A stretch of 64,000 nt of DNA from Bacteroidales bacterium (GTDB taxonomy: Bacteria > Bacteroidota > Bacteroidia > Bacteroidales > ML635J-15). Below the pieces are notes generated by a model that was given only the letters and a program-made list of their open reading frames with translations, made no database searches and had not been told where the DNA came from. The DNA is taken from the NCBI GenBank assembly GCA_017651185.1, contig JAGCDJ010000021.1, positions 62,001-126,000 of the forward strand, read 5' to 3'. Positions 32,244 to 49,407 of this stretch are shown piece by piece (within the stretch, counting starts at the first letter, position 1; each line of letters opens with the position of its first letter). Both the position numbers and the translations under genes were made by a program.

Positions 32244-35200
32244 TTATTTCCCCATTTCTGTCAGTTCCTCGGCAATAAGTTCCGCCTGCTTCAAGACGGT
32301 TTCGGTTGCCAGCAACTGCATGTCGGGCGGATAACCGTACTTGCGCAAAAGCCGTTTTACTGCAACTTTCATCCTCGACCTTACATTTTCCTTGATTGTC
32401 CAGTCGATGGATGTATTTTTGCGTATGGTTTCGGTTAAAACAACTGCCAGTTCGCGAAGTTGGTCCTTGCCCATCAGTTCCCTTGCGCTTTCGTTGTCGG
32501 CTACGGCGGAATAGAATGCATACTCATAAGTTGTAAGGCCCATTTTTTCTGCTTCCTTGTCCTTCCCGACAATGATTTTGCTCATTTCTATAAGGTCATC
32601 GATGACCTCAGCCGCTGTAATTATCTTATTGTGATATCGCTTAATGGAATTGTCCAGCATTTCCATCAATGTACGGCCTTCCACAATATTGAACTTGGAA
32701 CGAGCCTTAATTTCGTCTTCCAATAACTTTTTCAATACCTCCAAGGCGATGTTCTTGTGCTCCATGCCTTTCAATTCCATCAAAAACTCTTCGGAAAGTA
32801 TTGAAATGTCGGGTTTCTTGATTCCCGCCGCATCAAACAAGTCGATAACCTTGTCCGACACCAATGCCTGGTCTATGACCTGACGGATTGTAGTTTCTAT
32901 TTCCTCGTCGGTGCGTCCCGAACCAGTCTGGTCGAACTTGCAAAGACGAGCTTTCACTGCCTGGAAAAATGCCACCTCGTCCTTTATATCCATTGCTGCA
33001 TCCTGCGGAATTGCCAGTGCAAAGGCTTTGCCCAAAGCTGTAACTTCGTTTACGAAGCGCTTCTTGCCGTCGTCCAAACCCAATATGAAGTCTTCGGCTT
33101 TCAGTATCCACGATAGCTTTCCAGATGTGTCGGCAGTGAAATATTGCTTGTAATCGAAACCAAAGAACATCTGCTCAACGACTTCCAATTTTTCCTGCAT
33201 CAATGCAACCGCTTGTTCCTGTTGCAAGGTAGGATCGCCCTTGCCGCCCGAGTCGGAATAAAACGACAACGCTTTTTTCAAATCAGCCGCGATTCCAAGA
33301 TAATCTACCACAAGACCGCCCGGCTTATCATTGTAAACCCGGTTTACGCGGGCTATTGCCTGCATAAGATTATGTCCCTGCATTGGCTTGTCGATGTAAA
33401 GAGTATGCAGACATGGTGCATCGAAACCTGTAAGCCACATATCGCGCACAATGACCATCTTAAGTTCATCTTTAGGATCTTTCATCCGTTCCGCCAATGC
33501 CCTGCGCTGCTCCTTGGTGGTGTGATGCTTGGCAATTTCGGCTCCATCCGATGCGGACGATGTCATAACCACCTTGATAACGCCTTTCGACAAATCATCG
33601 GAATGCCACTCGGGACGCAACTTTACAATCTCGCTGTAAAGTTCGGCAGCTATCCTGCGACTCATTGCCACAATCATCGCCTTGCCTTCGAAAACTTTCT
33701 GCCGTTCCTCGAAATGGGTTACAATGTCCTTTGCAATATTCCTAATACGGTCGGGACTTCCGATAAGCGCCTCCAACTGCGTCCATTTTGCCTTGGTTTT
33801 CTGGACATCGTTCATATTTTCGGTCTCAAGTTCCTTGTCTAGGTCCTCGACCAACTGACGGCCCTCGGCACTCAACTCAACCTTAGCCAACCGGCTTTCG
33901 TAGAATATGCGCACCGTAGCACCATCTTCAACAGCCTGTGCAATGTCGTATACATCAATATAATTGCCAAATACCGCAGGTGTATTTACATCGGTTGATT
34001 CAATCGGCGTACCCGTAAAACCTAGATAGGTGGCGTTTGGCAAGGCGTCACGCAAATATTTTGCAAAGCCGTATTTTATTTCGGAGCCAATCACTTCATC
34101 GGCTTCGTTTCTAACATCAACCGTCTTTGCCCTGAAACCATACTGGGTACGGTGGGCTTCATCGGCAATAACAATGACATTGCTACGGTCGGTAAGCTGT
34201 TCGTAAACATTGCCAGATTCGGGCTGGAATTTCTGTATTGTGGTAAAAATAACGCCTCCCGACTGCACCGACAATAGTTTCTTCAAGTTCTCGCGGCTAT
34301 CGGCTTGCACTGGAGTCTGTCTCAACAACTGCCTTGCTCCGGTGAAAGTGTCGAAAAGCTGGTCGTCCAAGTCGTTGCGGTCGGTAATTACGACAATGGT
34401 CGGATTGTTGAGCCTCTGCACAATCTTGCCTGTGTAGAACACCATTGTCAACGACTTGCCACTGCCCTGAGTATGCCAGACCACACCTGCACGATGGTCG
34501 CCTACTTCCTGCTGTTTTACAGTCTTGAATCCATAATTTGCAGGAGATTCTGCAACAAAGGAAATACCGTTGATGCCTGTTGCGCGGATTGTAGATTCTA
34601 CCGCCTTGTTCACAGCATAGTACTGATGATAGGCGGCAATTTTCTTTGCCGTCTTTATGGTAGTAATGCCAGTTTTAAGGTCTTCCTGCTTCTGCTTTTC
34701 AAAAACCGTGAACGAACAAATGAGGTCGAGCAATGTATCCTTGCGCATCATGCCGTTCACAAGCACTTCGAGTTCGTTCACCAATGGCGAAGCCATATTC
34801 TCGCCATCTTCGCTTTTCCAAGCGGTGAAACGGCTAAAACCTGCCGAAATGGAACCTGCCCTTGCTTCCAAGCCATCGGAAATGACAATCAAAGCGTTGT
34901 AGGTAAACAGCGATGGAATCTGCTGCTTGTAGGTTTCAATCTGACGATAGGCGCTTTGCAGGGTAGCGTTTTCATCTGCTGCATTTTTCAACTCGAACAC
35001 CACCAGTGGCAAGCCATTGACGAAAAGCACCACATCGGGACGGCGGTTGTGCTCGTTCTCTATTATTGTAAACTGATTGACAACGTTAAATTCGTTGTTC
35101 AACGGTTCGTTGAAATCGACAAGCCACACCCTTTCGCCACGCTCGGCGCCATCCCTGAACACCGATACTGGAATACCTTCGGTAAGCAGACGATGAAACT

Positions 35201-35462
35201 CCTCGTTGTTGGCAAGTACATTTGGCGAGCCGATACGCAAAACAGTCTTTATGGTTTCATCGCGTACCGATGAAGGCAGAGCAGGATTTAGCCGCCTTAC
35301 TGCATTTTCCAGCTTGCCACGAAGCACCACAGTACTGAAACTGTCGCGCAACGGATTTTCGCTGTCGGGTGCAATGTCGGGACCATAAAGGTAGTCGTAA
35401 CCTTTGGCCTTCAACTGCTCGATTAGCATCTGCTCTATGTCGGATTCGTGAAGATGAGTCAT
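32244..35462 (-). CDS. hsdR: Type I restriction enzyme subunit R (HsdR)
   Basis: The 1072-residue motor and nuclease subunit of a type I restriction-modification enzyme. The N-terminal PD-(D/E)XK nuclease has D143 (RRPDVVLF), E157 and K159 (VFELK) and a QxxxY-type QIETYKQ. The SF2 translocase follows with Walker A TQGSGKSLTM, DEAH box ADEAHRTQ, and motif III GFTGTPI, and then a helical C-terminal part. Its start overlaps the stop of rloB by four bases (ATGA). hsdM and hsdS lie 9.5-17 kb away on the same strand, with other defence genes between. Confidence 0.97.
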   Translation of the reverse strand: MTHLHESDIEQMLIEQLKAKGYDYLYGPDIAPDSENPLRDSFSTVVLRGKLENAVRRLNPALPSSVRDETIKTVLRIGSPNVLANNEEFHRLLTEGIPVSVFRDGAERGERVWLVDFNEPLNNEFNVVNQFTIIENEHNRRPDVVLFVNGLPLVVFELKNAADENATLQSAYRQIETYKQQIPSLFTYNALIVISDGLEARAGSISAGFSRFTAWKSEDGENMASPLVNELEVLVNGMMRKDTLLDLICSFTVFEKQKQEDLKTGITTIKTAKKIAAYHQYYAVNKAVESTIRATGINGISFVAESPANYGFKTVKQQEVGDHRAGVVWHTQGSGKSLTMVFYTGKIVQRLNNPTIVVITDRNDLDDQLFDTFTGARQLLRQTPVQADSRENLKKLLSVQSGGVIFTTIQKFQPESGNVYEQLTDRSNVIVIADEAHRTQYGFRAKTVDVRNEADEVIGSEIKYGFAKYLRDALPNATYLGFTGTPIESTDVNTPAVFGNYIDVYDIAQAVEDGATVRIFYESRLAKVELSAEGRQLVEDLDKELETENMNDVQKTKAKWTQLEALIGSPDRIRNIAKDIVTHFEERQKVFEGKAMIVAMSRRIAAELYSEIVKLRPEWHSDDLSKGVIKVVMTSSASDGAEIAKHHTTKEQRRALAERMKDPKDELKMVIVRDMWLTGFDAPCLHTLYIDKPMQGHNLMQAIARVNRVYNDKPGGLVVDYLGIAADLKKALSFYSDSGGKGDPTLQQEQAVALMQEKLEVVEQMFFGFDYKQYFTADTSGKLSWILKAEDFILGLDDGKKRFVNEVTALGKAFALAIPQDAAMDIKDEVAFFQAVKARLCKFDQTGSGRTDEEIETTIRQVIDQALVSDKVIDLFDAAGIKKPDISILSEEFLMELKGMEHKNIALEVLKKLLEDEIKARSKFNIVEGRTLMEMLDNSIKRYHNKIITAAEVIDDLIEMSKIIVGKDKEAEKMGLTTYEYAFYSAVADNESARELMGKDQLRELAVVLTETIRKNTSIDWTIKENVRSRMKVAVKRLLRKYGYPPDMQLLATETVLKQAELIAEELTEMGK

Positions 35463-36199
35463 AATTTGTTGTTTAATATGAATTTATCATCTTTATCTTT
35501 TCTAACAGTTCCCAATTCCTCCATCAGTTCGTACATAGTTGTTGCAGATTCAGAGAACTCGGAGCCATTTCTTTTCTTTGCCAGATGTATTTTCATTGCC
35601 CGTTGACAAGCGTCCACAATTCTGTGATTGTGTGTAATAGGATCTATTGCCAGCATCAAGTCAAAGAAATCTTCCTCCACTTTTTTGCTTTCGCTGTCGT
35701 ACAACTTGACATTGGCATTTTTACACTTGTTGTATTGTGCAATAAACTTATTGATTTCGTCTATTTGTGCTTTCGAATGACTGTTTCCTTTCAATGGTAA
35801 TGGAGAACCGTCATGGTCATAGAAATGTAGCATGAACCAGTATTCTATACACATATTGGAAAATGCCACTCGAAACCCCAGCTCCCTTGCCAGTTTTACT
35901 CCATCAGAAAAATCCTTATGACCATCGCAGTCGAAAACAATCCATATTTGTTTGTATTTTCCTCTTTTATCTTTCGATAAACTATCGTGGTTTTTCTTCG
36001 CCGTATTTACAAAATCCACACACGACCCTATTCCTTGCCCCGGTACAGTAACAGGAATTACCTTGCAGTTGCTTCGTTTCAACAATTCGAAATAACTTGG
36101 TTCCGTATTCCTGCCTTCAACATATAGAAGAATCTTCTGTGGCTTTTTTGTATTCTGGTTCTTCCGCTGAATATTCGAATGAGAGTGATTCCTTGCCAT
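35459..36199 (-). CDS. rloB: RloB-like protein (AbiLii/RloB family)
   Basis: The 246-residue protein has a basic start, then KILLYVEGRNTEPSYFELL and WIVFDCDGH, as in the RloB family, whose fold is related to TOPRIM nucleases (E in VEG, D-x-D later). In RloAB/AbiL pairs an OLD-like ATPase partners with this predicted nuclease in phage defence. It sits two bases after rloA and overlaps hsdR by four bases, so rloA, rloB and hsdR form one operon. RloB genes are known to be linked to type I restriction loci. Confidence 0.87.
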   Translation of the reverse strand: MARNHSHSNIQRKNQNTKKPQKILLYVEGRNTEPSYFELLKRSNCKVIPVTVPGQGIGSCVDFVNTAKKNHDSLSKDKRGKYKQIWIVFDCDGHKDFSDGVKLARELGFRVAFSNMCIEYWFMLHFYDHDGSPLPLKGNSHSKAQIDEINKFIAQYNKCKNANVKLYDSESKKVEEDFFDLMLAIDPITHNHRIVDACQRAMKIHLAKKRNGSEFSESATTMYELMEELGTVRKDKDDKFILNNKL

Positions 36200-36201
36200 A
36201 A

Positions 36202-37500
36202 CTATTCCTGTTTTATTAAGTCAAGGAGTTGTTCGATGCTGATATATGGGACACCTCCAAAATCACCCTCGAGATAAAGTTTTTCCAGATTTGAACGCAT
36301 ATCGTTGCTGAAATCCGACAATGGAGTAAGTATAGACTCTCCGTACCTGTTCTTATCGACAAGATATACCTGATGCTTCAAGAACAATTTTTTCCCATCC
36401 TGTGTTTCATAATTCAACATTGATGCGTTTTGCGTATTGATGACCAATTGTGCGTTTGAATTGCACTTGTAATACAATTCGACAATAATCCGTGCAATGG
36501 ACGGATGTATTCCACTGTCAAATTCGTCGATGAAAAGTACGGTTCCGTTTTTTAGCGAAGATATAATGGCCCAGCTTAGGGCAAACAACCTGTTTGTTCC
36601 ATACGATTCGTCCTTTTCCATTGAGAACCATACATCGTTTACCCGTTCATACAAGCCGTTATATTGTTTGTGCAAAGTATTTACCCCGTCAAACAGTTTT
36701 CCTTTCAAATTGTCTTCTCCAATCATTTCCTTGATTTTTTCGGGTATCTCCAATACTGGAAGTTCATGCAAGATCATATCCTCAATATTGAAGTCGAAAG
36801 CTTTCATGAAGTTGACGATTTTACTCTTATTGACATTGTTTTCCAAAACAGGAATAGGATATGTTAATGAGGAGCGAATATCATTGGCAGATATGACTTT
36901 AGTCTCTCTGAACCAATCAACGACTTTTGTGGCCAGTGGTTCGTTGAATATGCCTAAGATAGCAAGAAAACTTGCCCGTGAAGAAATCATATTTGCCGAA
37001 ATGATATTTTCCGCAATCTTAGCATTAAAATGTTTGCTGGTATAGGTTATATTGGAATTATTATCCCTTGAAAAGACATTGGTTTCGCGTTTTGTCTTCA
37101 GGTAAAGCCATTCCGAAACGAATCCCTTATAGTTCAATTCAAAACCATAGCGATATTGAGTGTTGTCAATGATGAATACGACCTCAAAAAACGAATTTTC
37201 TTCAGACGAACATGTATTGAGCCTAAAAGGGTCATATCTTGACTGCCAATAGTCAAGTACAGGAATTTTATCTTTTCCACTCGGAGGACATACTACCGAT
37301 TTCATAAAGTCGAAAGCCTCAAAGAGTTTTGTCTTTCCGCTTGCATTGGCACCATATACCGTTGCGGTCTTTAGCACAGTATTTTTTAAATTTGTCTTAT
37401 GCGAATAATAATCATATTTGGCGGTATTGGGAGCGATAAGATTCAAAACGGATTCGTCCCTGAAACTTTTGTAGTTGCTAAATGAAAACTGTAAAAGCAT
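36202..37500 (-). CDS. rloA: RloA-like AAA ATPase (AbiLi family)
   Basis: The 432-residue ABC/SMC-type ATPase has FSNYKSFRDESVLNL at the start, Walker A GANASGKT (residues 50-57), and Walker B with TVLFIDEFDSGIHP near residue 320. It pairs with the RloB gene right after it. In AbiL-type defence such an ATPase senses infection and licenses the nuclease. It shares its layout with the lone ATPase at 39503-40846. It has its own -7 element (37530-37537), so rloAB-hsdR can be transcribed apart from the genes upstream. Confidence 0.87.
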   Translation of the reverse strand: MLLQFSFSNYKSFRDESVLNLIAPNTAKYDYYSHKTNLKNTVLKTATVYGANASGKTKLFEAFDFMKSVVCPPSGKDKIPVLDYWQSRYDPFRLNTCSSEENSFFEVVFIIDNTQYRYGFELNYKGFVSEWLYLKTKRETNVFSRDNNSNITYTSKHFNAKIAENIISANMISSRASFLAILGIFNEPLATKVVDWFRETKVISANDIRSSLTYPIPVLENNVNKSKIVNFMKAFDFNIEDMILHELPVLEIPEKIKEMIGEDNLKGKLFDGVNTLHKQYNGLYERVNDVWFSMEKDESYGTNRLFALSWAIISSLKNGTVLFIDEFDSGIHPSIARIIVELYYKCNSNAQLVINTQNASMLNYETQDGKKLFLKHQVYLVDKNRYGESILTPLSDFSNDMRSNLEKLYLEGDFGGVPYISIEQLLDLIKQE

Positions 37501-37529
37501 AATTCTGTATTATTATGAATATAACTTCG

Positions 37530-37537
37530 CAAAAATA
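37530..37537 (-). promoter_or_regulatory. -7 element of rloA-rloB-hsdR
   Basis: On the minus strand TATTTTTG fits TAnnTTTG, 29 bases before the rloA ATG. An inverted repeat TTTTTGCA...TGCAAAAA (37574-37595) lies about 35 bases upstream and could be an operator or a weak terminator for the gene before. Confidence 0.5.
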
Positions 37538-37666
37538 CACATTTGTTTTAAATCGGCAATTCTTTATTTTAGGTTTTTGCACTTTTTTGCAAAAATAGAC
37601 AATAAGTATATTGTAAGGTGGCAGACTACAAAACTTTTTTGGAATTGATTCCAAATCTTCAGCGAA

Positions 37667-38176
37667 TCATATATCAACCGATGGGATATAACTTGTAACA
37701 TCAAAAGACGGCAAATGGCTGCCTTTTGAAATTACATCGGAAACAAACTGCCTGCATTCCGCGTCGGTGATTTTGCCCCTTTTGTAAGCATAATACAGGA
37801 AATCAAGAGTTGTAAGGTATGTTATCTGCTCCTTTGCGCAGTAATCCTTTATATCCTTCAGGTTGCTGCTGCCAATCACATTATTTGTAAACTTGCAATA
37901 TGCCATGCATGCGCTTTCTCCTCTGCCAAAATTGCTGGAGAGCACAGCATATTCCCTCATCATTTCACCTTGGGGATTGAAATCTTCCAAAGAAATATTT
38001 TTCAAAAGGTTAACCTGGTTGTCAACCTGACTTCTGATTGTTTTTATCTCATCGTAAACTGGCTTTAGTATAATATGCTCAAATTCGGGCAAGATGCTTG
38101 GCAAAACACTAAGCATACCACCTTTTGCAAAGTGAATGAGCACATCAGCATCCAGCACTACCTTGGTTTTCGCCAT
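37667..38176 (-). CDS. PIN-like domain protein
   Basis: The start is taken at MAKTKVVLDADVLIHFAKGG; the frame runs 19 codons further but inside the gene before it. The 169-residue protein has PIN-type acids: D in VLDADV, E in VYDEIKTI, a GRGESACMAY segment and D in LTTLDFL. PIN proteins are usually ribonucleases and often toxins. It overlaps the end of the ImmA/IrrE peptidase gene by 32 bases, so XRE, peptidase and PIN protein are made together. It may be the toxic part of a three-gene toxin-antitoxin-like module. Confidence 0.75.
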   Translation of the reverse strand: MAKTKVVLDADVLIHFAKGGMLSVLPSILPEFEHIILKPVYDEIKTIRSQVDNQVNLLKNISLEDFNPQGEMMREYAVLSSNFGRGESACMAYCKFTNNVIGSSNLKDIKDYCAKEQITYLTTLDFLYYAYKRGKITDAECRQFVSDVISKGSHLPSFDVTSYIPSVDI

Positions 38177-38879
38177 AACCGATAAGATTAAGCAGTTCGA
38201 TGTAGTGTCCTTCGGAAATACGCTCCTCCTCAAAAAGCTTGCGGGCTTTTGCTCCGAAATCGCCGATTATAAGTCTTTTTCCATCGCCTTTCTGGTACAG
38301 TTCGCTGCCAAAACCGCGCAAGGCTGCCTCCCTGGTGACAACAAGACTGGCAAGCATATCGGCGTAGTCGGGCTTAATAATGTGCAATTCCTTCAGCCTA
38401 ACGACCATGGTACTGTGCGAAATGCCGTAGAGATGTTCCAGCCTGATTACCGTATCGATGCCGACCTCCTTATTCTTCAGTTCTTCTGCCGGAATGTTCA
38501 TCAGAATGCCGTCCCTGGGCATCAGCAAGGCCGAAGCGAACATGTTGGCAGAACGCTCTGCCGGGTCGGTAAAAGGCTGACTGCAGAAATGTGGCTGTGG
38601 ATTCTCGTCGAAATACAGGTGATATAGTTCGTGGGCGACGGTAAAATGCTGTGCGCCACGGGTTATGTTGCTATTGACGAGCATAAACCTGTTTTTTCTG
38701 TCGTGCGAAACTATCGACAGTCCGAAAATTTTGTCGGACATGGGGCTGAAAACAGCCATAATGTTAAGCTGGCGCAAGGCTGTCTTTGCGTTTAGCGGTT
38801 CGGTGCCCGATATGCGCAGGTATTCGCTACGCATCTTTGCTGCAAGCATTTCGGCAGTTTCTGAATCTATCTTTTTCAT
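38145..38879 (-). CDS. ImmA/IrrE family metallo-endopeptidase
   Basis: The start is taken at MKKIDSETAEML (38879), which overlaps the XRE stop by four bases (ATGA); the longer frame only mirrors the XRE gene. The 244-residue protein has the zinc motif HELYH in VAHELYHLYFDE and a downstream PAERSANMFASALLMP typical of the family. These peptidases cleave XRE-type repressors to derepress genes, as in ImmA/ImmR and in CapP/CapH of CBASS. The order XRE-peptidase next to a CBASS-like locus makes a CapP-like role possible. Confidence 0.88.
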   Translation of the reverse strand: MKKIDSETAEMLAAKMRSEYLRISGTEPLNAKTALRQLNIMAVFSPMSDKIFGLSIVSHDRKNRFMLVNSNITRGAQHFTVAHELYHLYFDENPQPHFCSQPFTDPAERSANMFASALLMPRDGILMNIPAEELKNKEVGIDTVIRLEHLYGISHSTMVVRLKELHIIKPDYADMLASLVVTREAALRGFGSELYQKGDGKRLIIGDFGAKARKLFEEERISEGHYIELLNLIGYGENQGSAGC

Positions 38880-39211
38880 TTCTCCAGCAGCCTTTCCATT
38901 TTCATGTAATTCAAAACTATGTTCTTGAAGTCGGCCACTTCTTTCATGTCGGCTGGCGAGAGGTTGTCGGCGCGGAAAGCGCAGGCGAGGGCACCATGAA
39001 GGGCTTTTTCTTCCTCCTCGAACAAAAGGCTGAGCTCGCATCCGAACAAAGCAGCCGCTTTTTCGAGCACATTTACAGGCGCTTCGCGGCTACCGCTTTC
39101 GTAATTTGCGTATGCCGAGCGGTTGACGCCCAAAAACTCCGCAACGGTTTCCTGCTTGTAGCCGTTTGCGTCGCGCAAAAGCTTTAAGTTTCTTCCGACA
39201 ACTGATTCCAT
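38876..39211 (-). CDS. XRE family transcriptional regulator
   Basis: The start is taken at the ATG at 39211 (MESVVGRNLKLLR); an upstream TTG is also in frame. The 111-residue protein has an N-terminal helix-turn-helix of the Cro/XRE type (YKQETVAEFLGVNRSAYANYE) and a helical C-terminal part rich in Glu (LSLLFEEEEKALHG). It is followed by an ImmA/IrrE peptidase that could cleave it. An inverted repeat frames its promoter (39258-39305), so it likely represses itself. It may also act on the ATPase and CBASS-like promoters nearby. Confidence 0.88.
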   Translation of the reverse strand: MESVVGRNLKLLRDANGYKQETVAEFLGVNRSAYANYESGSREAPVNVLEKAAALFGCELSLLFEEEEKALHGALACAFRADNLSPADMKEVADFKNIVLNYMKMERLLEK

Positions 39212-39257
39212 TGATTTTGTTTTATTGTTTGTTATCAATCTTTTGTCTTATCCATTC

Positions 39258-39305
39258 CCGTGGCAAAGTTACAAACAATTATCAAAACCCAAAGTTTTGC
39301 CACGG
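39258..39305 (-). promoter_or_regulatory. XRE promoter framed by an inverted repeat
   Basis: CCGTGGCAAA (39258-39267) and TTTGCCACGG (39296-39305) form a perfect 10-base inverted repeat. On the minus strand -7 TAACTTTG (plus 39264-39271) overlaps the inner arm and -33 TTTG (plus 39290-39293) lies next to the outer arm, with 18 bases between them. Binding of a repressor dimer or two dimers would cover the promoter. Confidence 0.7.
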
Positions 39306-39418
39306 TTTTTATTATATGTTTTTCAACATTTATACGAATGGGACGTTAATCTATTTGGCATAAATTGTTGTTTGCCAGCAACTTTATTGCTTTTTTCATA
39401 TAGGCACAGGTTGTCGAC

Positions 39419-39433
39419 CGTGAATTTTTCACG
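39419..39433 (+). promoter_or_regulatory. Palindrome upstream of the lone ATPase gene
   Basis: CGTGAATTTTTCACG has 6-base arms around TTT. It ends 29 bases before the -7 element at 39463. A near-identical palindrome stands 30 bases before the -7 of the CBASS-like operon (40897-40911). Confidence 0.6.
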
Positions 39434-39462
39434 CTAAATCTAGTGGATGTTTTAAAAAATAG

Positions 39463-39470
39463 TATTTTTG
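39463..39470 (+). promoter_or_regulatory. -7 element of the lone ATPase gene
   Basis: TATTTTTG fits TAnnTTTG, 32 bases before the ATG. There is no TTTG at -33, which may mean the promoter needs an activator. Confidence 0.5.
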
Positions 39471-39502
39471 CATCAGTTTTCAATTGTGAAAAAGGATGAA
39501 TT

Positions 39503-40846
39503 ATGATAGAAAGGTTTACGGTAGAGAACTATAAGTCGTATCAACGGGAGGAAACATTGTCGTTTTTGGCCTCCAACCGAGAAAAAAGCAGTGTTTTGCC
39601 GCCACAATGGTATAAAGAAATTGATGGCAAACGACTGCTACGTCTTCTGATATGTGTAGGTTTAAATGGCACAGGAAAGTCAAAGATGTTTTCTGCATTA
39701 AATTACCTGCGTATGATTGTCATCGCCAAACCCAAAAACCCAACAGATCGTCCAGAATATCGACCATTCTTGCTTGACAATGACTCAAGAACGAAACCAA
39801 CTGTACTTTCGTTGACTTATTACATTGGTACAACAGGATATTATTATAAGGTATCGGTAAGCAATGACAGAATTGAAGAAGAATTGTTGCGACAGATGGA
39901 GGGAAACGTGCTAATATATCAGCGGTCGTATAATACAGAAAAGGACACTGTTGCAGTGAAATTTGGGCCAGCATGTGATTTAAGCAAGAATGACCAACGC
40001 ATGTTGGAATCAAGTGTTAATCAGAATGCCACGGTATTATCAGTGTTTGGGGATAAAAATTTGAATAGTCGGGTGTTGCGAGACAATTTCAACTACTATG
40101 CAAACAATATAAGTCTGGTGCAGCGCAGTGACCAGAGCCTCGCCGACCGATTGAAAACCAACGATCCGGAGCGTGACAAGCAAGTAAAAAAAATGCTATT
40201 AAAGTTGCTGAACGATGTAGGGACGAACATTGTTGATTATGAGGTAGATGATACCAGTATCCATATAACAGACCTTGTAAAGAGTGGAGCTCCTGACATT
40301 GTGGTAAAGGCAATGATGGAACAATATCCTACAGGGACTATTTCGCACAAAAACCTGCGTTTTATTCACAAAACAGCTGTGGCTGGCGAAAAATCACTGG
40401 ACGTAGGAGCGGAATCTGTAGGGACAATAAGCATTGTAAGACTGCTGGTTGTAATGTATGATATTGTGATGGGGCGCAAATGCTCATGCATTGACGAGAT
40501 TGAAACGGGCATTCATACCAAAGCATTGGCCTTTATCATAAAAATGTATCTTTCTATAGCAGAGGATTGCCAGATTGTTGTAGCCACGCATGACCTTTCT
40601 TTGCTAAACCATCCAATATTGAGGCGAGACGCCGTGCGTATGTTTGAAAAAGACGACAATGGCTGCACTTATATTCGGAAGCATGAATATGTACATAATA
40701 CTCTTAACTTTCAGAAAATTTACTGCAAAAAAGTTGATCCAAAACTCGACAATCTGCTTGAAGACACTGATTTGTTCCTTGAATATCGCAAGCTAATGGA
40801 ATTGTTCTTGTCTGAGTTTGCAAAGCCAATAGGCGTGAAAAAATAA
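39503..40846 (+). CDS. Lone RloA-like AAA ATPase
   Basis: The 447-residue ATPase of the same kind as RloA: start MIERFTVENYKSYQREETLSF, shown here to its 20th residue or so, Walker A GLNGTGKS (residues 53-60), and Walker B in CIDEIETGIH (about 332-341) followed by VVATHDLSLL. No RloB, TOPRIM or other nuclease partner follows. It lies between the XRE trio and the CBASS-like operon, and has a palindrome like that of the operon upstream. It may be an extra part of that system or a separate defence gene. Its codons are AT-richer than those of nearby housekeeping genes. Confidence 0.82.
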   Translation: MIERFTVENYKSYQREETLSFLASNREKSSVLPPQWYKEIDGKRLLRLLICVGLNGTGKSKMFSALNYLRMIVIAKPKNPTDRPEYRPFLLDNDSRTKPTVLSLTYYIGTTGYYYKVSVSNDRIEEELLRQMEGNVLIYQRSYNTEKDTVAVKFGPACDLSKNDQRMLESSVNQNATVLSVFGDKNLNSRVLRDNFNYYANNISLVQRSDQSLADRLKTNDPERDKQVKKMLLKLLNDVGTNIVDYEVDDTSIHITDLVKSGAPDIVVKAMMEQYPTGTISHKNLRFIHKTAVAGEKSLDVGAESVGTISIVRLLVVMYDIVMGRKCSCIDEIETGIHTKALAFIIKMYLSIAEDCQIVVATHDLSLLNHPILRRDAVRMFEKDDNGCTYIRKHEYVHNTLNFQKIYCKKVDPKLDNLLEDTDLFLEYRKLMELFLSEFAKPIGVKK

Positions 40847-40896
40847 CCACAAATACCAATATTTCTTGTCTTAAAAAGCACATCACCTGTATTTAA

Positions 40897-40911
40897 CGTG
40901 AAAAAATCACG
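40897..40911 (+). promoter_or_regulatory. Palindrome upstream of the CBASS-like operon
   Basis: CGTGAAAAAATCACG has 5-base arms around a 5-base centre. It ends seven bases before the -33 TTTG (40919) and 30 bases before the -7. It matches the palindrome at 39419-39433 in arms and position. Confidence 0.65.
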
Positions 40912-40918
40912 GAAAATA

Positions 40919-40949
40919 TTTGGAGGTTGAAATTTTTTATGTATTTTTG
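40919..40949 (+). promoter_or_regulatory. Promoter of the CBASS-like operon
   Basis: TTTG at 40919-40922, 19 bases, TATTTTTG at 40942-40949: a full consensus promoter 26 bases before the CD-NTase ATG. The operon is thus a transcription unit of its own. Confidence 0.75.
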
Positions 40950-40975
40950 CCGCATAATTTTAAAAAATATTATCT

Positions 40976-41914
40976 ATGAATAAAAATAATCATTTAAAAG
41001 AAGTACTTGACACTCATAAGATGTACCATGTACAAGACTTCGTGGACAAGGTTAAGAACCGCAGAGAAGAAATTAAGGAGAAAATGTACAATCATTATGG
41101 CAACAAGAAGTACCAGGCGTTTGACTCTGGCAGTTTTGCAAAACATACTGCTATAAATGTGAAATTTGACCTTGACTTGGTTGAGCCCTTCAAACACAGT
41201 ACATTTGGAACACTACAAGAGATGTTTGATGATGTATATGATTTTCTTGTAGAGGAATATAAAAATACAGGTGTTAGCATTAGGAAGCAAAAGGTGTCGA
41301 TTGGTATCACATTTCCAATTGAAAAAGGAGATGATAAGCCAGTTGAACTAGACATTGTGCCAGGAAGAGAATTGAATGATGATGATTACCCAGAAACAAA
41401 CGATCTTAATTTGTATTTTAACGAAGATCATTGGGGTTTTACAAAAGGAACAAGCCAAAAAACTAACATTCAAAAACAAATCGACCATATTAAAGGTAAA
41501 AATGATGAACGTGAAATTATTCGTCTGCTTAAAATTTGGAAGAAACAGAAAGAAAAAAAGTACAAGTCGTTTGTGATAGAATTGACTGTTATAAAAGCCT
41601 TTGAAGACTATAATGGTGACACGGACCTTTGGTCAAGATTAAAATTTGCAATGGAATACCTACGCGACAACATTGCAGATAGCAGTTTCCATTTGTATGA
41701 TCCAGGCAATACCAACAACGATGTTGTTTCGTCAATGTCGGATTTTGATAGGCAATCATTTAAAACTGATATGGAGAGCATGCTCAACAATATTGATAGG
41801 GATCCTGACACATATTTACCTTATTATTTCAAAGTGAATGAAAAGTATAGTGACGGTTACAAGGAAAAAAATTCTGGCACGGTGTACCCTAATAGCCCAA
41901 AACGTTTTGGATAA
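40976..41914 (+). CDS. CD-NTase (cGAS/DncV-like nucleotidyltransferase, CBASS)
   Basis: The 312-residue protein has the polymerase-beta-like active site of CBASS synthases: G52-S53 in DSGSFAKHTAI, D65 and D67 in FDLDLVEPF, and a third acid D126 in VELDIVPG. A helical second half (about 165-290) fits the SMODS-type core. Such enzymes make a cyclic di- or trinucleotide on phage infection. The last residue is Gly (SPKRFG). In type II CBASS the E1-E2 protein Cap2 links the C-terminus of the synthase to targets, and this end fits that. The product nucleotide cannot be told. It is first of three tightly linked genes. Confidence 0.88.
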   Translation: MNKNNHLKEVLDTHKMYHVQDFVDKVKNRREEIKEKMYNHYGNKKYQAFDSGSFAKHTAINVKFDLDLVEPFKHSTFGTLQEMFDDVYDFLVEEYKNTGVSIRKQKVSIGITFPIEKGDDKPVELDIVPGRELNDDDYPETNDLNLYFNEDHWGFTKGTSQKTNIQKQIDHIKGKNDEREIIRLLKIWKKQKEKKYKSFVIELTVIKAFEDYNGDTDLWSRLKFAMEYLRDNIADSSFHLYDPGNTNNDVVSSMSDFDRQSFKTDMESMLNNIDRDPDTYLPYYFKVNEKYSDGYKEKNSGTVYPNSPKRFG

Positions 41915-41917
41915 AAT

Positions 41918-43576
41918 ATGATGACTGCGGATAAAATAAAGGAACTGATAGAAACTGTTGACAGAGTGTCTCTTATTGATGCTTTCGTTGCCGATAAGAA
42001 TGGTACGTTGTCGGGGAAAATTAAAGTTAAGTCTGGAGGAAATGTCCATGATACAGAGTGGTCAGTAAAAATTTCTCCAACTTATCCTTTTAGACTTATG
42101 GATATGGAGCCTATTCATTTCATCAACAGCGCATTGATAGACTATTCGCATATCATGGAGAACGGTTCGCTTTGTAAGCATCCTGCAGAATATGAGAATC
42201 CTGAAGAACAGTTTGTTCATGATTTAGGGCAATTAATAGAATGGATTGATGAATACTACATAAAAGAAAAGAAGGATGAGCATTACGAGCATTTAGTAGT
42301 AAACCACAACTTAATTCGAGATCAATACTTTACATACTGCTTTGCGGAAACACAAGAAGAATTCGAAAACGAGGATTATGGTTTTGTTTCCTATGCAAAT
42401 ATTGCACAAGGCAGAAAGAATAAAAAGGAAATACTTAATTTTGTAGTTCAGAAATTCACATCGACTAAGCAAGTAAGAAAAATAGAAAATCCTTGCCGTA
42501 TAAGTCGGGCATATTTAAATCTTGAATCAAATTATGGCATCTATTGTCTATTGAAAGAAGCCCCTTCTGCACACAATAAGTTTATTATCAAAGACTTTGA
42601 TTCATTAAAAGATCTATTTTCACAAAGTCAAAAAGACTTTATTCATACTTTTGAAAAACAATATCGAAATAAAATTCAATACTTTCCACTATTTTGTGGT
42701 TACAAACTGCCTGACGGCAGTATTCACTGGCAGGCGATGGTTCTTCATATGGATGATTTACCGATAGAACCATTCCATATTGGAACAGGTCGTAATCGAG
42801 TATGGCATACGGATTTTAAAAGCGGCAAAATTCCCTGGTGCCAAACAGAAGATATTTCATACAAGTATTTCTTTGGTCGTGGTGCCATGCCACAAGAGTT
42901 AGCTGACAAAAAGATTCTAATCATGGGTGTTGGAGCAATTGGCAGCACTATTGCAGAATCTTTGACTCGATGTGGAGCAAAGAGAATTACAGTCTATGAC
43001 ATCGACGATAAAGAACCTGGTAATGTTTGTAGGTCAGCCTACCCATTCTATTCTGGTATAACAGAGAAAACACAAGACATAATAGACGCGCTACAACGGA
43101 TCTCTCCTCATGTAGAATGTGATAGTCTCAAATCGTTACTGGATGTAGTTGTAAAGAAGATTGCTGCCGAAGAGAAAGACATGCAGTTTATTGCAAAATT
43201 GTTCAACGCATATGATGTAATCTTTGATTGTACTACTGATAATCAGTTAATGCGAGTGATTGACAATTCTGGTATCACAGCACAAGTAATAAATCTTTCT
43301 ATAACTAACTATGCTCAGGATCTGGTGTGTGCCTTTTCTCCAAATATTACAGAAACTGTTCGTCTGATTTATAAAGTGTTGAACCGCGATACAGAATCCG
43401 ACTTGTATAACCCAACAGGCTGTTGGGCTCCAACATTCAAGGCTTCATTTAATGATATTGCTTGTAAAGTACAATTCGCATTGAAGCATATTATTAGAAT
43501 GTTAAGTGAGCAAGAACCTAGAGAAAATTTTTATGTGACGGAAGATGAAACTAATTTAATTATTAATCGATTATGA
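41918..43576 (+). CDS. cap2: E2-E1 fusion protein (Cap2-like)
   Basis: The 552-residue protein joins a ubiquitin-conjugating (E2-like) domain, with candidate catalytic C86 in NGSLCKHP, to a ThiF/E1 domain from about residue 320 with the nucleotide site MGVGAIGST (about 335-343), DIDD, and candidate catalytic C502 in PTGCWAPTF. This layout is that of Cap2 of type II CBASS, which conjugates and primes the CD-NTase. Two ATGs in a row make the exact start uncertain by one codon. It starts three bases after the CD-NTase stop and overlaps the next gene by four bases. Confidence 0.9.
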   Translation: MMTADKIKELIETVDRVSLIDAFVADKNGTLSGKIKVKSGGNVHDTEWSVKISPTYPFRLMDMEPIHFINSALIDYSHIMENGSLCKHPAEYENPEEQFVHDLGQLIEWIDEYYIKEKKDEHYEHLVVNHNLIRDQYFTYCFAETQEEFENEDYGFVSYANIAQGRKNKKEILNFVVQKFTSTKQVRKIENPCRISRAYLNLESNYGIYCLLKEAPSAHNKFIIKDFDSLKDLFSQSQKDFIHTFEKQYRNKIQYFPLFCGYKLPDGSIHWQAMVLHMDDLPIEPFHIGTGRNRVWHTDFKSGKIPWCQTEDISYKYFFGRGAMPQELADKKILIMGVGAIGSTIAESLTRCGAKRITVYDIDDKEPGNVCRSAYPFYSGITEKTQDIIDALQRISPHVECDSLKSLLDVVVKKIAAEEKDMQFIAKLFNAYDVIFDCTTDNQLMRVIDNSGITAQVINLSITNYAQDLVCAFSPNITETVRLIYKVLNRDTESDLYNPTGCWAPTFKASFNDIACKVQFALKHIIRMLSEQEPRENFYVTEDETNLIINRL

Positions 43577-44841
43577 AATACTATCAAGAAGAATATGATC
43601 TATACATTGAAATAAAGGCTTCGGTATTTGCAAAAATACAAATGCAGGCTAATGGAGAATACCCTAACGAGAATGGAGGAATGCTTGCTGGTCATTATTC
43701 ATCTGACAAACACACGGTATATGTTGAAGAAGTTGTCGTTCCTACTGAAAAGAAAACGGGCAGAACGTCATTTGTCCGAAGCACCACAGGACTTGAGTCT
43801 GTATGGAAAAAATTAGGTGAGAAAGGATTACGATATATTGGAGAATGGCATAGTCATCCAAATGGGACAACACAATATAGCGCCACTGATATGAGCGCAA
43901 TGAGAGATATAGAGAAGGAAGTCTCTATTGAGAACCCGATATTGCTGATTGTAAGTGTAAAAAACGAAGGTATAGTTGCACAAACATTTTACTGTTACAA
44001 GAATAATAAACTATTAGAATATAGAAAGATGATTGATTTAAGAGAATTATATGGAGGTTTGCAAAAACAGATGGAAACAAGCCTCAATGTAAACAGAGAG
44101 TTTATAAGTCATGCTGGCAGCAAAGGAGATGCTACAGAACAACATTGGATAGACTTCTTAAGAACATACCTTCCAGACAGGTATAAGGTTGACAAAGCCA
44201 TAATAATAGATTCAACTGGCAATGTGAGTTGGCAAATGGATATTGTTATTTATGATGGATTGTACACACCATTCATTTTTAATCAAGATGGATTCAAGTA
44301 TGTTCCCGCAGAAAGTGTGTATGCGGTCTTTGAAGTCAAACAAGATGTAAAAGGAAACCTTGAATACGCGGCACAACATGTAGAAAGTGTTCGCAAACTA
44401 CAACGCACTAGTATAGATATGGTTAATTCTGGAAAGCGAACAGACGCAGTTCTGTTGACGAAAATAATTGGAGGTATACTAACAACTACTAATTCATATA
44501 AAGACTCTCATACTATAGAAAACCAATTGAAAAAATTGAAGGGTTACCAAACTTTAGATATGGGATGCTTCTGCAATTCGGGTAGTTTTTACGTAGACTA
44601 TGAGGAAAAGGTACCCCCAAATATAAATAATAAAAATGGTATTGAAGAAAAACGTGAGTATATCAAACAACTATATGAAAGTCGTACGGTAAACGATGTC
44701 ATTTTTAGTGACAAGGAAGTATCGTTATTCACGTTCTTTCTCCAGTTAGTAAGTTATCTTAAATCAATAGGAACTGTTCCTGCAATTGATATCAATGAAT
44801 ATCTAAAACCAATTGGTGCAAAAATTGATGAAATAATATAA
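43573..44841 (+). CDS. JAB peptidase (Cap3-like) fused to a DUF6602 nuclease-like domain
   Basis: Residues 1 to about 145 are a JAB/JAMM isopeptidase: E33 in NENGGMLAGH, H93 and H95 in EWHSHPNG, then S103 and D106. Cap3 of this type removes the Cap2-made conjugate. Residues about 165-330 match the DUF6602 family (GSKGDATEQHWIDFL, IIIDSTGNVSWQMDIVIYD, shown to 19, and ESVYAVFEVKQ). D223, E254 and K256 fit a PD-(D/E)XK nuclease site. A helical tail of about 90 residues follows. Cap3 is usually a single domain of about 160 residues, so this is an unusual fusion. It may carry the effector that the operon otherwise lacks. Confidence 0.85.
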   Translation: MKYYQEEYDLYIEIKASVFAKIQMQANGEYPNENGGMLAGHYSSDKHTVYVEEVVVPTEKKTGRTSFVRSTTGLESVWKKLGEKGLRYIGEWHSHPNGTTQYSATDMSAMRDIEKEVSIENPILLIVSVKNEGIVAQTFYCYKNNKLLEYRKMIDLRELYGGLQKQMETSLNVNREFISHAGSKGDATEQHWIDFLRTYLPDRYKVDKAIIIDSTGNVSWQMDIVIYDGLYTPFIFNQDGFKYVPAESVYAVFEVKQDVKGNLEYAAQHVESVRKLQRTSIDMVNSGKRTDAVLLTKIIGGILTTTNSYKDSHTIENQLKKLKGYQTLDMGCFCNSGSFYVDYEEKVPPNINNKNGIEEKREYIKQLYESRTVNDVIFSDKEVSLFTFFLQLVSYLKSIGTVPAIDINEYLKPIGAKIDEII

Positions 44842-44861
44842 GACCACTTAAGGAGATAAAA

Positions 44862-44930
44862 AACATGGATTATTGATATATCTGATATCGCATGAAATAT
44901 TCGGATATACAGTAATCCATGTTAATTTTT
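44862..44930. terminator. Long imperfect hairpin between converging genes
   Basis: AACATGGATTA (44862-44872) pairs with TAATCCATGTT (44913-44923). Inside, TATATCTGATAT and ATATTCGGATATA extend the stem imperfectly around CGCATGA. A run of T follows for rightward transcripts. It lies between the ends of the CBASS-like operon and hsdS and could stop both, or mark the edge of the inserted cassette. Confidence 0.55.
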
Positions 44931-44980
44931 TAGTTTATCTAAAATCGGCAGATTGATTAGCCTCTATAATACGTATCTAC

Positions 44981-46129
44981 CTATATCTTTATCTCCCCTC
45001 CCATCAACCTCGGTAGCAAACCATCACGAGTTTGAATGAGAGTTTGAATCTCTTTATTGTTATTAATTATCTTATCATCTATATCCTTTACTTGTTGCTG
45101 AAAACTCATAATTGTATTCTCATCAGGAACAACAATGTCAAGATTTTCAAAATCAGATTTACTTATTGAACCAAATACTGTCCCATTGTCATTGAATTGT
45201 TTGATTTCTTCCAACAACGACTTTAGTTTGTAATAAGTATATGAATAATAAGAAGAATTGCCTTTGTATCTAAAAGCGGCAACACCACGGCCAATACAAC
45301 ATTTCTCTGTTGCCATATTCTGCGCGCCAACAGGTGCACGAACACTAATTAACGTGTCATTCGGTTCTGCAAATCTTGTCGGTTGGGTTGTAAAAACTCG
45401 CTTTGTAGGGAACCTAAAACCAAAATCAGCATTGCCTTGATACATAGGTATGCCGACACCTTCTTCATTAAAACTATCACCGCGCGGGGATTGTCCCATC
45501 GTGAAATTAAATTCATCTCCCAACTTTCCTTCCTCCCACTCCTCCTTGCTTTCTTCCACAAACCACTGCCTGAAAAGTGTCTCCGCCATCTGCTCCAAGG
45601 TGGCGTTCTCGCGGTGCAGAAGGTCTATCTTGTCGTCGAGAGATGAAAGGATGGATGCAATGCGGCGCTGGGTATCTAATGGGGGGATTTCTATGTCAAG
45701 GGCTTCTATATCACTAGGTTTCAATGAAGGATAGGCAGAAGTTGATGCTTCAGCAACAGAATGAAGGTATTCCGTAATTTGAGATTGTATCAAAAAGTAA
45801 TACAAGAATTTTGGACAAAGCAAATCTTTATTACAAGTAATGGTTACAAAACCAGTCGAAACCACAAGATTATCTTGCGGATTTGTGATATACCCATAAT
45901 GCAACTGATTAGGACGCACTGACGAATAGATTATATCATCTTGTTTCACCAACCGTTTGGCTCGACTTGGTGCTTTATCCAATTCAAATTCTTGAAATGA
46001 GTCAATGTTATTGCAAGTAATTGAGCCTGTGTCCAAATACAAAATCTTTGAATAAGGATAATCCCTGCCAATTGATTTTACATTGGTTTTTATCAATTCA
46101 CCCAACTTATATTCTTTCCACTCGGTCAT
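44981..46129 (-). CDS. hsdS: Type I restriction enzyme specificity subunit (HsdS)
   Basis: The 382-residue protein has two target-recognition domains (about 1-145 and 195-330), each followed by a conserved helix: PPLDTQRRIASILSSLDDKI in the middle and FQQQVKDIDDKIINNNKEI at the end. This is the usual two-half HsdS that sets the DNA target of both restriction and methylation. No second hsdS copy, inverted repeat or invertase is present, so no sign of switching. It is downstream of hsdM and the AlbA_2 gene, 122 AT-rich bases after the latter. Confidence 0.95.
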   Translation of the reverse strand: MTEWKEYKLGELIKTNVKSIGRDYPYSKILYLDTGSITCNNIDSFQEFELDKAPSRAKRLVKQDDIIYSSVRPNQLHYGYITNPQDNLVVSTGFVTITCNKDLLCPKFLYYFLIQSQITEYLHSVAEASTSAYPSLKPSDIEALDIEIPPLDTQRRIASILSSLDDKIDLLHRENATLEQMAETLFRQWFVEESKEEWEEGKLGDEFNFTMGQSPRGDSFNEEGVGIPMYQGNADFGFRFPTKRVFTTQPTRFAEPNDTLISVRAPVGAQNMATEKCCIGRGVAAFRYKGNSSYYSYTYYKLKSLLEEIKQFNDNGTVFGSISKSDFENLDIVVPDENTIMSFQQQVKDIDDKIINNNKEIQTLIQTRDGLLPRLMGGEIKI

Positions 46130-46251
46130 AAGGCATTCGTATCTATTTTCTTTTTCTGATAAAAAAACAAAAAAAGGATTTATTCTTTGATTGTCAATAA
46201 ATTACAATTTTCTTTTTTTATTATTATTGTTATTTCTTTTTTTTTTTGCCA

Positions 46252-47883
46252 TTATTTCAACTCATATTTTCTGTAAGTCCTGCCCCCTGTAGTTTTAATT
46301 TCATTTCCTACCATACTATAAAGCATTTTTTGCAACTCGTTCCGTTCCACATCGGGCAAACGTTCTGCTATTTCAGAAATAAGACTTTGCGGATGATATT
46401 TCAAATCTTCTATAATCAATGCTTTTAATGCGTATGGTTCAATTGTTTTCAACGATGTTTTGATGTTTGCATTTGAATTGGCAATCAGTTTAGGGTTAAT
46501 AAAATAGGTAGTACCTTTCTTTGTCCCTTTTTTGTTGATAATACCATCCTTTAACAAAGGTTCAACATAGCTTCTCAGCCTTTCATCGTCTGACAGCTGA
46601 AGGTATGCTGACAATTTTGTAGATTGCATTTTTGTTGCTGTGGCAATGGCGCCAAAGGCAATAAACCCTTTCTGCGAAAGATTGTAATTGTTGAGCGTAT
46701 AGTCAAGCAATGGTAGTATGTTAACATTTTGAATGTCAGAATATAAAGTAACCTTTGTTTCGTTAAATGAAGATTCGACAACAGGCGGCATCTTTCCTTC
46801 CATTCCGTTGAGTTCATAAATCAGATCGTATCCAGAACCTTCTCCTTCCATCAATCCCAAGTCACTCATTATGGCAATGAAATAAGGATTGCGCCTATGA
46901 CGTTGATGCAGTATGTTGTCTTTTGTAACACCCAAAGGCAATCCGCCTGGATTGGAAATTTCCAGTCTGTCAGGATATGCACAAATCATTATATCGCTTG
47001 AAATAGTAAAACTTTTATGTGCAAAGGAATTTAATAAAAGTTCTCTCAGTACTTTGGGATGGTAATGCCGTATCTGCTTACGGAAAAGTCCGTCAGGAAA
47101 TTCAAATGAATAGCCTAATTCTGTCGCCTCTTTCTCGATTTCAAGAAGTAATTCTTTAGGGTTCAATGCATTGTCGTGCCACTCTATTTTTCTAACTTTC
47201 TGCTCCAAATGGTTGTACACTATATATTGCACGGTTATAGGAAACGAAATTCGACTTCGCTGTTTGGCATTGCCAAGCCATAAAACGCCTAAGTTAGTAA
47301 CAGTTTCCCCGTCAATCATATTATAGTGTTCAAGTATTTCAATGTCGGACATTTGTTTGACATGTTGCTTGACTCTGTCGGCATTTCTAATGTCTTCTGT
47401 AAATTTCCTAATATTTTCTGCGAGCATATCCGACAAAGAAAATTTTGTAGCAAGAAGCTCCCATTGATATGCCCCCTTTTCAATTGACAACCGTTGCAAA
47501 TCCTCATTTCTTACAGGTTCGCACTTGTCGGCTATACGGATATAAATTTTTCCGTCTGATGTTGTAGCTATTGATTTCAATGAAGGTGCGACACTAATTT
47601 TAAAATACACACCGCCATTCTCATGCTTAATCAATCCGGAAGAAGATAAACTTACATTGAAACAAAGACTATGAAGTCGAGAAACTGTGTCGTTTATTTC
47701 GTCCTCTGTAATTGTCTGCCCAGCCAAAGGAATCAAACTTTTGTCTTCTATGCCAATGTATAAAGTTCCTCCTTGTGCATTTGCAAAAGCAATACAAGAG
47801 ACGGCTAAGTCTTTAAAACCTTTGTCACCAGTACGGATTTTCCGAATGCTTTTGTAATCTATTATTTGATTTTCTGTATTCAT
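46252..47883 (-). CDS. AlbA_2 (Schlafen-type) domain ATP-binding protein
   Basis: The 543-residue protein begins with an AlbA_2 domain (about 5-130) marked by AFANAQGGTLYIGIEDKS. A HATPase_c_4-like domain (about 255-400) has HYHPKVLRELLLNSFAHKSF, DRLEISNPGGLP and MEGEGSGYDLIYE, and a winged-helix-like C-terminus follows. Such proteins are often annotated as regulators; many sit inside type I restriction loci, and their role there is not settled. It begins three bases after the hsdM stop, so it is cotranscribed with it. Confidence 0.87.
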   Translation of the reverse strand: MNTENQIIDYKSIRKIRTGDKGFKDLAVSCIAFANAQGGTLYIGIEDKSLIPLAGQTITEDEINDTVSRLHSLCFNVSLSSSGLIKHENGGVYFKISVAPSLKSIATTSDGKIYIRIADKCEPVRNEDLQRLSIEKGAYQWELLATKFSLSDMLAENIRKFTEDIRNADRVKQHVKQMSDIEILEHYNMIDGETVTNLGVLWLGNAKQRSRISFPITVQYIVYNHLEQKVRKIEWHDNALNPKELLLEIEKEATELGYSFEFPDGLFRKQIRHYHPKVLRELLLNSFAHKSFTISSDIMICAYPDRLEISNPGGLPLGVTKDNILHQRHRRNPYFIAIMSDLGLMEGEGSGYDLIYELNGMEGKMPPVVESSFNETKVTLYSDIQNVNILPLLDYTLNNYNLSQKGFIAFGAIATATKMQSTKLSAYLQLSDDERLRSYVEPLLKDGIINKKGTKKGTTYFINPKLIANSNANIKTSLKTIEPYALKALIIEDLKYHPQSLISEIAERLPDVERNELQKMLYSMVGNEIKTTGGRTYRKYELK

Positions 47884-47886
47884 ACT

Positions 47887-49407
47887 TTATTCCATTTTTA
47901 TCTTCCCCAGATTCTCCAGAATTACCTTGTTCAAACGTTCTTCCTCCTTCAGTTGATCCTCAAACTCGGCTTTCAGGGCTGTGAAACGCTCGGCAAAGTT
48001 GAAGTCGTCTTCCTCCTCGGGCAAACCTACATAACGTCCAGGCGTGAGCACATAGTCCAATTCGGCCACACGGCTCACCGGAACCGAAGCGCAGAAGCCT
48101 GCAATATCCTGATATTCTGCTGATTCATCGCGCCACAGATGATAAGTCCGTGCAATCTCCCTAATGTCGTCATCCGACAGTTCGCGGGTTCGGCGGTTGA
48201 TGAGATGTCCCTTGTTGCGAGCATCGATGAAAAGTATTTCGCCTGCGCGCTTGCTGCGGTTGCGTGTCACAAACCACAGGCAGGCTGGAATCTGGGTGTT
48301 CAGGAACAATTTTGCTGGAAGGTTCACTATGCATGCGATAAGACCTTTGTCGATCAGAGCCTTGCGGATGTCGCCTTCGCCACCGGTCTTCGATGTCAGC
48401 GAACCTTTTGCCAGCACGAAACCTGCCTGTCCGCTCGGTGCAAGGTGGTAGATGAAATGCTGAATCCAAGCGAAGTTGGCGTTTCCTGCAGGCGGCACTC
48501 CGTACTGCCATCTAGCATCGTTGCGCAGCTGGTCGCCGCTCCAGTCGCTGTCGTTGAACGGCGGATTTGCCATAACGAAATCGGCCTTGACATCGCGGTG
48601 CGCATCGTTTAGGAACGAACCTTCGGTGTTCCACTTCACCTGCGAAGCATCGATGCCGCGTATGGCAAGGTTCATCTTGCACAGGCGCCAGGTGGTCTGG
48701 TTACTTTCCTGCCCGTAAACCGAGATGTTCTCTATCCGTCCCTGATGCTCCTTCACAAACTTTTCGCTCTGCACAAACATTCCGCCCGAACCGCAGCACG
48801 GGTCGAGCACGCGCCCCTTGTAGGGCTCCAGCATATTCACAAGCAGTTCCACGACACTTCGCGGCGTGTAGAATTGCCCGCCCTTCTTGCCCTCCGCCAA
48901 GGCAAATTCGCCAAGGAAATACTCGAACACATGTCCGAGCAGGTCGGCGCTCTTTGTGCTTGTGTTCTGCAAGGTGGAGTTGCCAACAAGGTCGATAAGT
49001 TCACCCAGACTGGTGGGGTCGAGTTCCGAACGCGAAAAGACTTTCGGCAGAATGCCCTTCAAGGTCCTGTTCTCACGCTCAATGGCGTCCATTGCATCGT
49101 CAATGTATTTTCCGATTAGCGGATGCTTTGCCTTCGATACCAGATACGACCATCTTGCGTCTGCCGGAACATAGAAAACATTCTCGGCTGCATACTCGTC
49201 GCGGTCTTCGGGGTCGGCACCTTCGGACTGCTGTTCCACGAGCTGTGCGTACAGCTGTTCAAACGAAACGGAAATATATCTCAGGAAAATCAATCCCAGT
49301 ACAACGTCCTTGTATTTTGCCGCATCAATGTTCTTGCGCAGTTTGTCAGCCGCTTTCCAAAGCTGTTTTTCAAGCGGTTCTTCAATAGTTTGTTTTGTGC
49401 TTGCCAT
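47887..49407 (-). CDS. hsdM: Type I restriction enzyme methylase subunit (HsdM)
   Basis: The 506-residue N6-adenine DNA methyltransferase has an N-terminal helical HsdM domain, AdoMet motif I DPCCGSGGMF, and catalytic motif IV NPPFND. With HsdS it methylates host DNA; with HsdR it forms the restriction complex. The length and domain order are typical. It is the first gene of the minus-strand defence block, with a -7 element at 49427-49434. Confidence 0.97.
   Translation of the reverse strand: MASTKQTIEEPLEKQLWKAADKLRKNIDAAKYKDVVLGLIFLRYISVSFEQLYAQLVEQQSEGADPEDRDEYAAENVFYVPADARWSYLVSKAKHPLIGKYIDDAMDAIERENRTLKGILPKVFSRSELDPTSLGELIDLVGNSTLQNTSTKSADLLGHVFEYFLGEFALAEGKKGGQFYTPRSVVELLVNMLEPYKGRVLDPCCGSGGMFVQSEKFVKEHQGRIENISVYGQESNQTTWRLCKMNLAIRGIDASQVKWNTEGSFLNDAHRDVKADFVMANPPFNDSDWSGDQLRNDARWQYGVPPAGNANFAWIQHFIYHLAPSGQAGFVLAKGSLTSKTGGEGDIRKALIDKGLIACIVNLPAKLFLNTQIPACLWFVTRNRSKRAGEILFIDARNKGHLINRRTRELSDDDIREIARTYHLWRDESAEYQDIAGFCASVPVSRVAELDYVLTPGRYVGLPEEEDDFNFAERFTALKAEFEDQLKEEERLNKVILENLGKIKME

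Follow-up and report, generated by a model that had tools for sequence, protein, structure and literature searches.

The window, a 64,000-nucleotide stretch of a Bacteroidales genome, contains a gene for a lone ABC-type ATPase followed, on the same strand, by a three-gene operon with all the parts of a type II CBASS: a CD-NTase, a Cap2 E2-E1 fusion, a Cap3 JAB domain and a NucC effector (Table 1). The Cap3 part carries the sequence EWHSHP...S..D, which fits the JAMM motif by eye, and the NucC domain of the same protein matches NucC structures 6q1h (1.5e-40) and 6p7o (1e-40). By gene content, the operon is predicted to be a complete type II CBASS. It resembles known type II CBASS with a NucC effector in its CD-NTase, Cap2 (E2-E1), Cap3 (JAB) and NucC components. 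It differs from them in that Cap3 and NucC form one protein and that the operon is preceded by an AAA_21 ATPase gene which appears to be regulated together with it. Cap3 (the deconjugase) and the suicide nuclease NucC are also a single protein in related loci L003, L004, L005 and L030, while L006 encodes JAB and NucC in two genes. No plasmid record covering 80% of the length of the Cap3-NucC protein was found.

Table 1. Features of the ATPase-CBASS locus and the neighbouring XRE module (window positions; L and G numbers are introduced in the text)
Feature	Position	Strand	Remarks
XRE + M78/ImmA-like protease	38145-39208	-	XRE 38876-39208; M78 38145-38879; neighbouring module
Putative operator of the XRE module: CCGTGGCAAA...TTTGCCACGG inverted repeat around its promoter	39258-39305		sequence; kept in L118-L121
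Palindrome CGTGA-ATTTT-TCACG (CGTGAATTTTTCACG)	39419-39433		putative ATPase operator; exact; kept in L005 and G405
-7 box TATTTTTG (TAnnTTTG type), ATPase promoter	39463-39470	+	8/8 bases kept in L005
Lone AAA_21/AbiLi-like ABC-type ATPase	39503-40846	+	447 aa; Pfam AAA_21 7e-12; PADLOC AbiLi 1e-47
Palindrome CGTGA-AAAAA-TCACG (CGTGAAAAAATCACG)	40897-40911		putative CBASS operator; exact; kept in L005
-7 box TATTTTTG, CBASS promoter	40942-40949	+	sequence
CD-NTase (CBASS cyclase)	40976-41914	+	312 aa; Pfam SMODS 6.8e-7; PADLOC Cyclase 4e-87
Cap2 (E2-E1 fusion)	41918-43576	+	552 aa; PADLOC E1-E2 5e-215, residues 2-551; ThiF 8e-16
Cap3 (JAB)-NucC fusion, effector nuclease	43573-44841	+	422 aa; Prok-JAB 1.5e-16; DUF6602 3e-30

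The lone ATPase classifies as an RloA-type ATPase of AbiL (AbiLi 1.2e-47, AAA_21 7e-12). It shares with the RloA/AbiLi ATPases its PADLOC AbiLi match (1e-47) and differs from AbiL in lacking an RloB/AbiLii partner of its own, which was absent beside this ATPase in the window and in related loci L005 and L077; the RloB of the window pairs with another RloA (36202-37500). The predicted fold (mean pLDDT 80) has a Rad50/SMC/PtuA-like head. Neither profile nor fold comparison matched a helix-turn-helix or other sequence-specific DNA-binding domain in this protein.

XRE, M78 and PIN-like genes (37667-39208) are oriented opposite to the ATPase and CBASS genes. The PIN-like protein, the third of this module, has no Pfam match and is recognized by PADLOC as PDC-S70. 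The type I RM locus that spans 32244-49407 serves as a hotspot for cargo. Interspersed with its hsdR, hsdS and hsdM genes are RloAB, XRE-M78-PIN, ATPase-CBASS and a Schlafen AlbA_2 gene, and different cargo is found between related RM genes in L121 and L083.

The original prediction placed the same palindrome at the same position in front of the ATPase gene and the CBASS operon, and this was confirmed exactly. Both sites are 15-mers of the form CGTGA-N5-TCACG with perfect arms, separated from the downstream TATTTTTG element by 29 bases (ATPase) and 30 bases (CBASS). TATTTTTG is present at all four promoters of the window and L005 and corresponds to TAnnTTTG, the -7 box consensus of sigma-ABfr (PMC7366714). 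At the CBASS promoter of the window, a TTTG 19 bases 5' of the -7 box fits the -33 box by eye; judged in the same way, it is the only one of the four promoters with a clear -33 box. The flanks share no words longer than one half of the palindrome, the -7 box and an A/T tract. Since the flanks are otherwise unlike, the shared element is the 15-mer and not a duplicated promoter.

Within the window, a search allowing up to one mismatch retrieved only these two sites, both exact, against a mean expectation of 1.57; this count is by itself not unusual for a one-mismatch search of 64 kb and proves little. The concern that the motif might be common throughout the genome was not borne out: in 3.37 Mb the exact pattern occurs twice, both times here, and a reversed control pattern occurs six times. 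Among 2000 dinucleotide-shuffled versions of each 200-base promoter, no more than one contained the exact motif. When up to two mismatches were allowed with a W5 spacer, the genome yielded 58 matches versus 47 for the control, and near-misses are therefore background; one single-mismatch site (C46:9218) was discarded, as it lies inside apparent coding sequence (by eye). The palindrome followed after 24-54 bases by TANNTTTG was retrieved at four places in 374 Bacteroidales genomes, namely the two window sites, one place in coding sequence and a stem in front of folB that resembles a terminator. A search of 18 genomes at relaxed stringency gave a few scattered single matches and no promoter site that recurred, and the motif with its promoter was not found in viral contigs. 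A global host regulator with many sites was rejected as the reader, since near-misses are at background and no promoter site recurs in this genome or its relatives. In the papers searched, neither the motif in Bacteroidetes nor the operator was found.

A cyclase search identified a yak-rumen Bacteroidales genome (L005/G393) with the same four genes in the same order and 75.5% nucleotide identity across window positions 39454-44844. Its ATPase gene is preceded by CGTGATTTTTTCACG and its cyclase gene by CGTGAAAATTTCACG; the motif has no further exact copy in the 2.5 Mb of this genome, and the gaps to the -7 boxes are 29 and 28 bases. The window and L005 agree at each of the 20 arm bases and in the two -7 boxes, whereas identity is 44% and 49% over the remainder of the promoters and 76% over the genes. 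Since the motif was defined without L005, this locus is a fair test, and the prediction, which absence of the motif from related loci would have spoken against, passed it at both genes. L005 is the sole independent locus found with both sites. A same-genus contig (G405, 95.7% identity) has the ATPase site and stops within the ATPase gene. In L005, the cyclase-side palindrome is extended into an inverted repeat with 20-base arms (7901-7941), and an apparent frameshift close to the start of the CD-NTase gene (8080-8081) may be an assembly error.

We propose that a single dimeric DNA-binding regulator recognizes both palindromes, which would be two copies of its operator. Each copy would directly precede the -33 region in a promoter of the sigma-ABfr type, with its centre at about -48 if the usual placement of the -7 box is assumed, one serving the ATPase gene and the other the type II CBASS operon. 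A shared operator would make the four genes one regulon, probably co-expressed on infection or DNA stress. We consider this explanation to be likely; the sequence of the sites, their uniqueness, their fixed spacing and their conservation in a second lineage are observed, and protein binding, co-regulation and the trigger are inferred from them. A position 5' of the -33 box would be more in keeping with an activator than with a repressor that simply blocks the promoter. The single regulon that had been predicted is supported by the rarity of the motif and by both sites of L005, but the XRE protein that had been suggested for testing with both sites is not.

The occurrence of the site was compared with that of the genes. 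Every locus found with a cyclase more than 70% identical to that of the window has an RloA-type ATPase immediately upstream. These ATPases are of three kinds: the one in the window and L005, a 454-aa protein in L003, and RloA-RloB in L004, L030 and L031 (the L031 cyclase is partial). The palindrome was absent from the same-lineage CBASS loci with other ATPases (L003; L004, L030 and L031; for L004, 56 bases upstream of the RloA gene were compared) and from one of this lineage without an ATPase (L006). The palindrome-promoter arrangement is thus found with this ATPase and not at CBASS loci with other ATPases, which indicates that the site moves along with ATPases of this type and the adjacent CBASS. 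In L003, the ATPase and CBASS promoters have no 9-mer in common and no alternative shared operator was seen. RloA-RloB lies 20-21 bases upstream of the CBASS genes in L004, L030 and L031, a spacing that suggests a second route by which this CBASS comes to be co-expressed with an ATPase. No report of RloA/RloB together with CBASS was found in the literature. The neighbourhood of RloA-type ATPases and this CBASS lineage should be read as a lead, not a statistic, the loci being few and some of them closely related.

Relatives of the ATPase also occur without CBASS. One such lone ATPase (L077, 60% identical) carries CGAGTTTTTTTCACGCTAAA, which shares TTTTTCACGCTAAA with the window, and four lone relatives from one genus (L078, L079, L086 and L087) have CCGTGC-N5-TCACC or close variants. 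Their distance to the -7 box is 49-51 bases, compared with 28-30 bases for the palindromes, which places these site-like sequences about two helical turns further upstream. CGTG-N7-CAC appeared in 0.1-0.6% of shuffles of the lone-relative promoters; since this looser pattern was picked after the sequences had been viewed, the lone-relative sites are to be taken as no more than suggestive. This ATPase was not found in viral contigs, its relatives among the matches listed for phages and plasmids are at about 30% identity or less, and a sample of 395 genomes of the phylum yielded no further close ATPase.

The lone relatives bring up the possibility that the palindrome is read by the ATPase, which would act as an SMC/Rad50-like dimer, sense DNA and control both its own gene and the CBASS. 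No other gene is shared by all loci that have a site or site-like sequence (the window, L005, L077, L078, L079, L086 and L087), the predicted fold of the ATPase resembles Rad50/SMC/PtuA heads, and the GTG-N7-CAC-like sequences before the lone relatives, at their 49-51-base distance and low shuffle frequency, are consistent with such a role. We nevertheless regard it as unlikely, for the protein has no matched sequence-specific DNA-binding domain, the relaxed motif is post hoc, the L077 site is one-sided and the other four lone copies come from one genus. By the same token, an ATPase that serves as a DNA sensor with a second copy of its operator at the CBASS, such that DNA sensing sets the amount of CBASS, is conceivable but doubtful.

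Still less probable is that the adjacent XRE repressor, acting with the M78 protease as a CapH/CapP-like pair, binds both palindromes and controls the four genes. The XRE gene is adjacent and divergent to the ATPase gene and stays beside it in G405 at 95.7% identity; XRE and M78, located beside the CBASS in the window, give weak profile matches to capH (8.5e-8) and capP (7e-18), and an M78-like gene (by eye only) is found beside the CBASS of L032. As in CapH/CapP-regulated CBASS (summarized in PMC13373217), an XRE gene and an M78 protease gene are located upstream of the CBASS genes; the locus differs from that system in two features. First, the XRE-M78-PIN module is present in four other genomes (L118-L121) that have no ATPase or CBASS in the examined neighbourhood and no CGTGA-N5-TCACG near the module. 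In all five genomes, the module's own promoter is bracketed by a slightly variable inverted repeat, GTGGCAAAA...TTTTGCCAC; this repeat is different from the palindrome, was not found at the CBASS promoter and is likely the operator of the XRE module. Second, L005 has both palindromes, while XRE and M78 genes are absent beside its CBASS and no XRE relative was found in its genome at E 1e-6. In L121, a closely related type I RM locus without the ATPase-CBASS unit has the module between its hsdS and hsdR genes, which makes the module a separate cargo of the RM locus. The XRE protein, which the original prediction suggested testing with both sites, is therefore not supported as the reader.

That the palindromes have no regulatory role, being chance occurrences or transcription terminator stems, is scarcely credible: the extended cyclase-side copy of L005 could form a hairpin, but the arms are kept in diverged DNA, the exact motif is unique genome-wide, neither palindrome has a T-run or a terminator call, and a terminator would have no function at the ATPase-side site, which is flanked by divergent genes.

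To return to a shared operator read by one dimeric regulator, the most probable reader is an unlinked regulator, encoded elsewhere in the genome; the ATPase is a less likely candidate, and the adjacent XRE protein is probably not the reader. A dedicated regulator is normally encoded nearby and often controls its own gene. Since no transcription factor gene common to the loci was found, this is a point against the proposed explanation, as is the count of one independent locus, L005, with both sites. It is very likely that the ATPase and CBASS genes form one regulon, and plausible that they form one four-gene defence system. The four genes occur together in two lineages, the ATPase is also found without CBASS, and this CBASS is also found with other ATPases. 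For a case built on sequence comparison, the evidence for the regulon is good; that for one system is weaker, given the lone ATPases and the CBASS loci with different ATPases.

The switching on of CBASS is known for few regulators, namely CapW/BrxR, CapH with CapP, and CapK/CapS (PMC13373217). The arrangement described here is similar to those of CapK/CapS (PMC13373217) and RptR (PMC12255303) in that defence operons are placed under short palindromic operators; CapS has operators at more than one promoter (PMC13373217) and RptR is found beside type I RM (PMC12255303). The half-sites of those regulators are TTAA (CapK/CapS, PMC13373217) and TAGCTA (RptR, PMC12255303), and their sites are reported to be at or to overlap the -10 box, whereas here the site is CGTGA-N5-TCACG and lies upstream of the -33 region.

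Thus, a Bacteroidales CBASS appears to share an operator with a separate ATPase gene. The 15-base palindrome is a probe for finding the regulator, and the CBASS lineage, standing beside RloA-type ATPases in several arrangements, offers a testable case in which such an ATPase may be a standing partner of CBASS.
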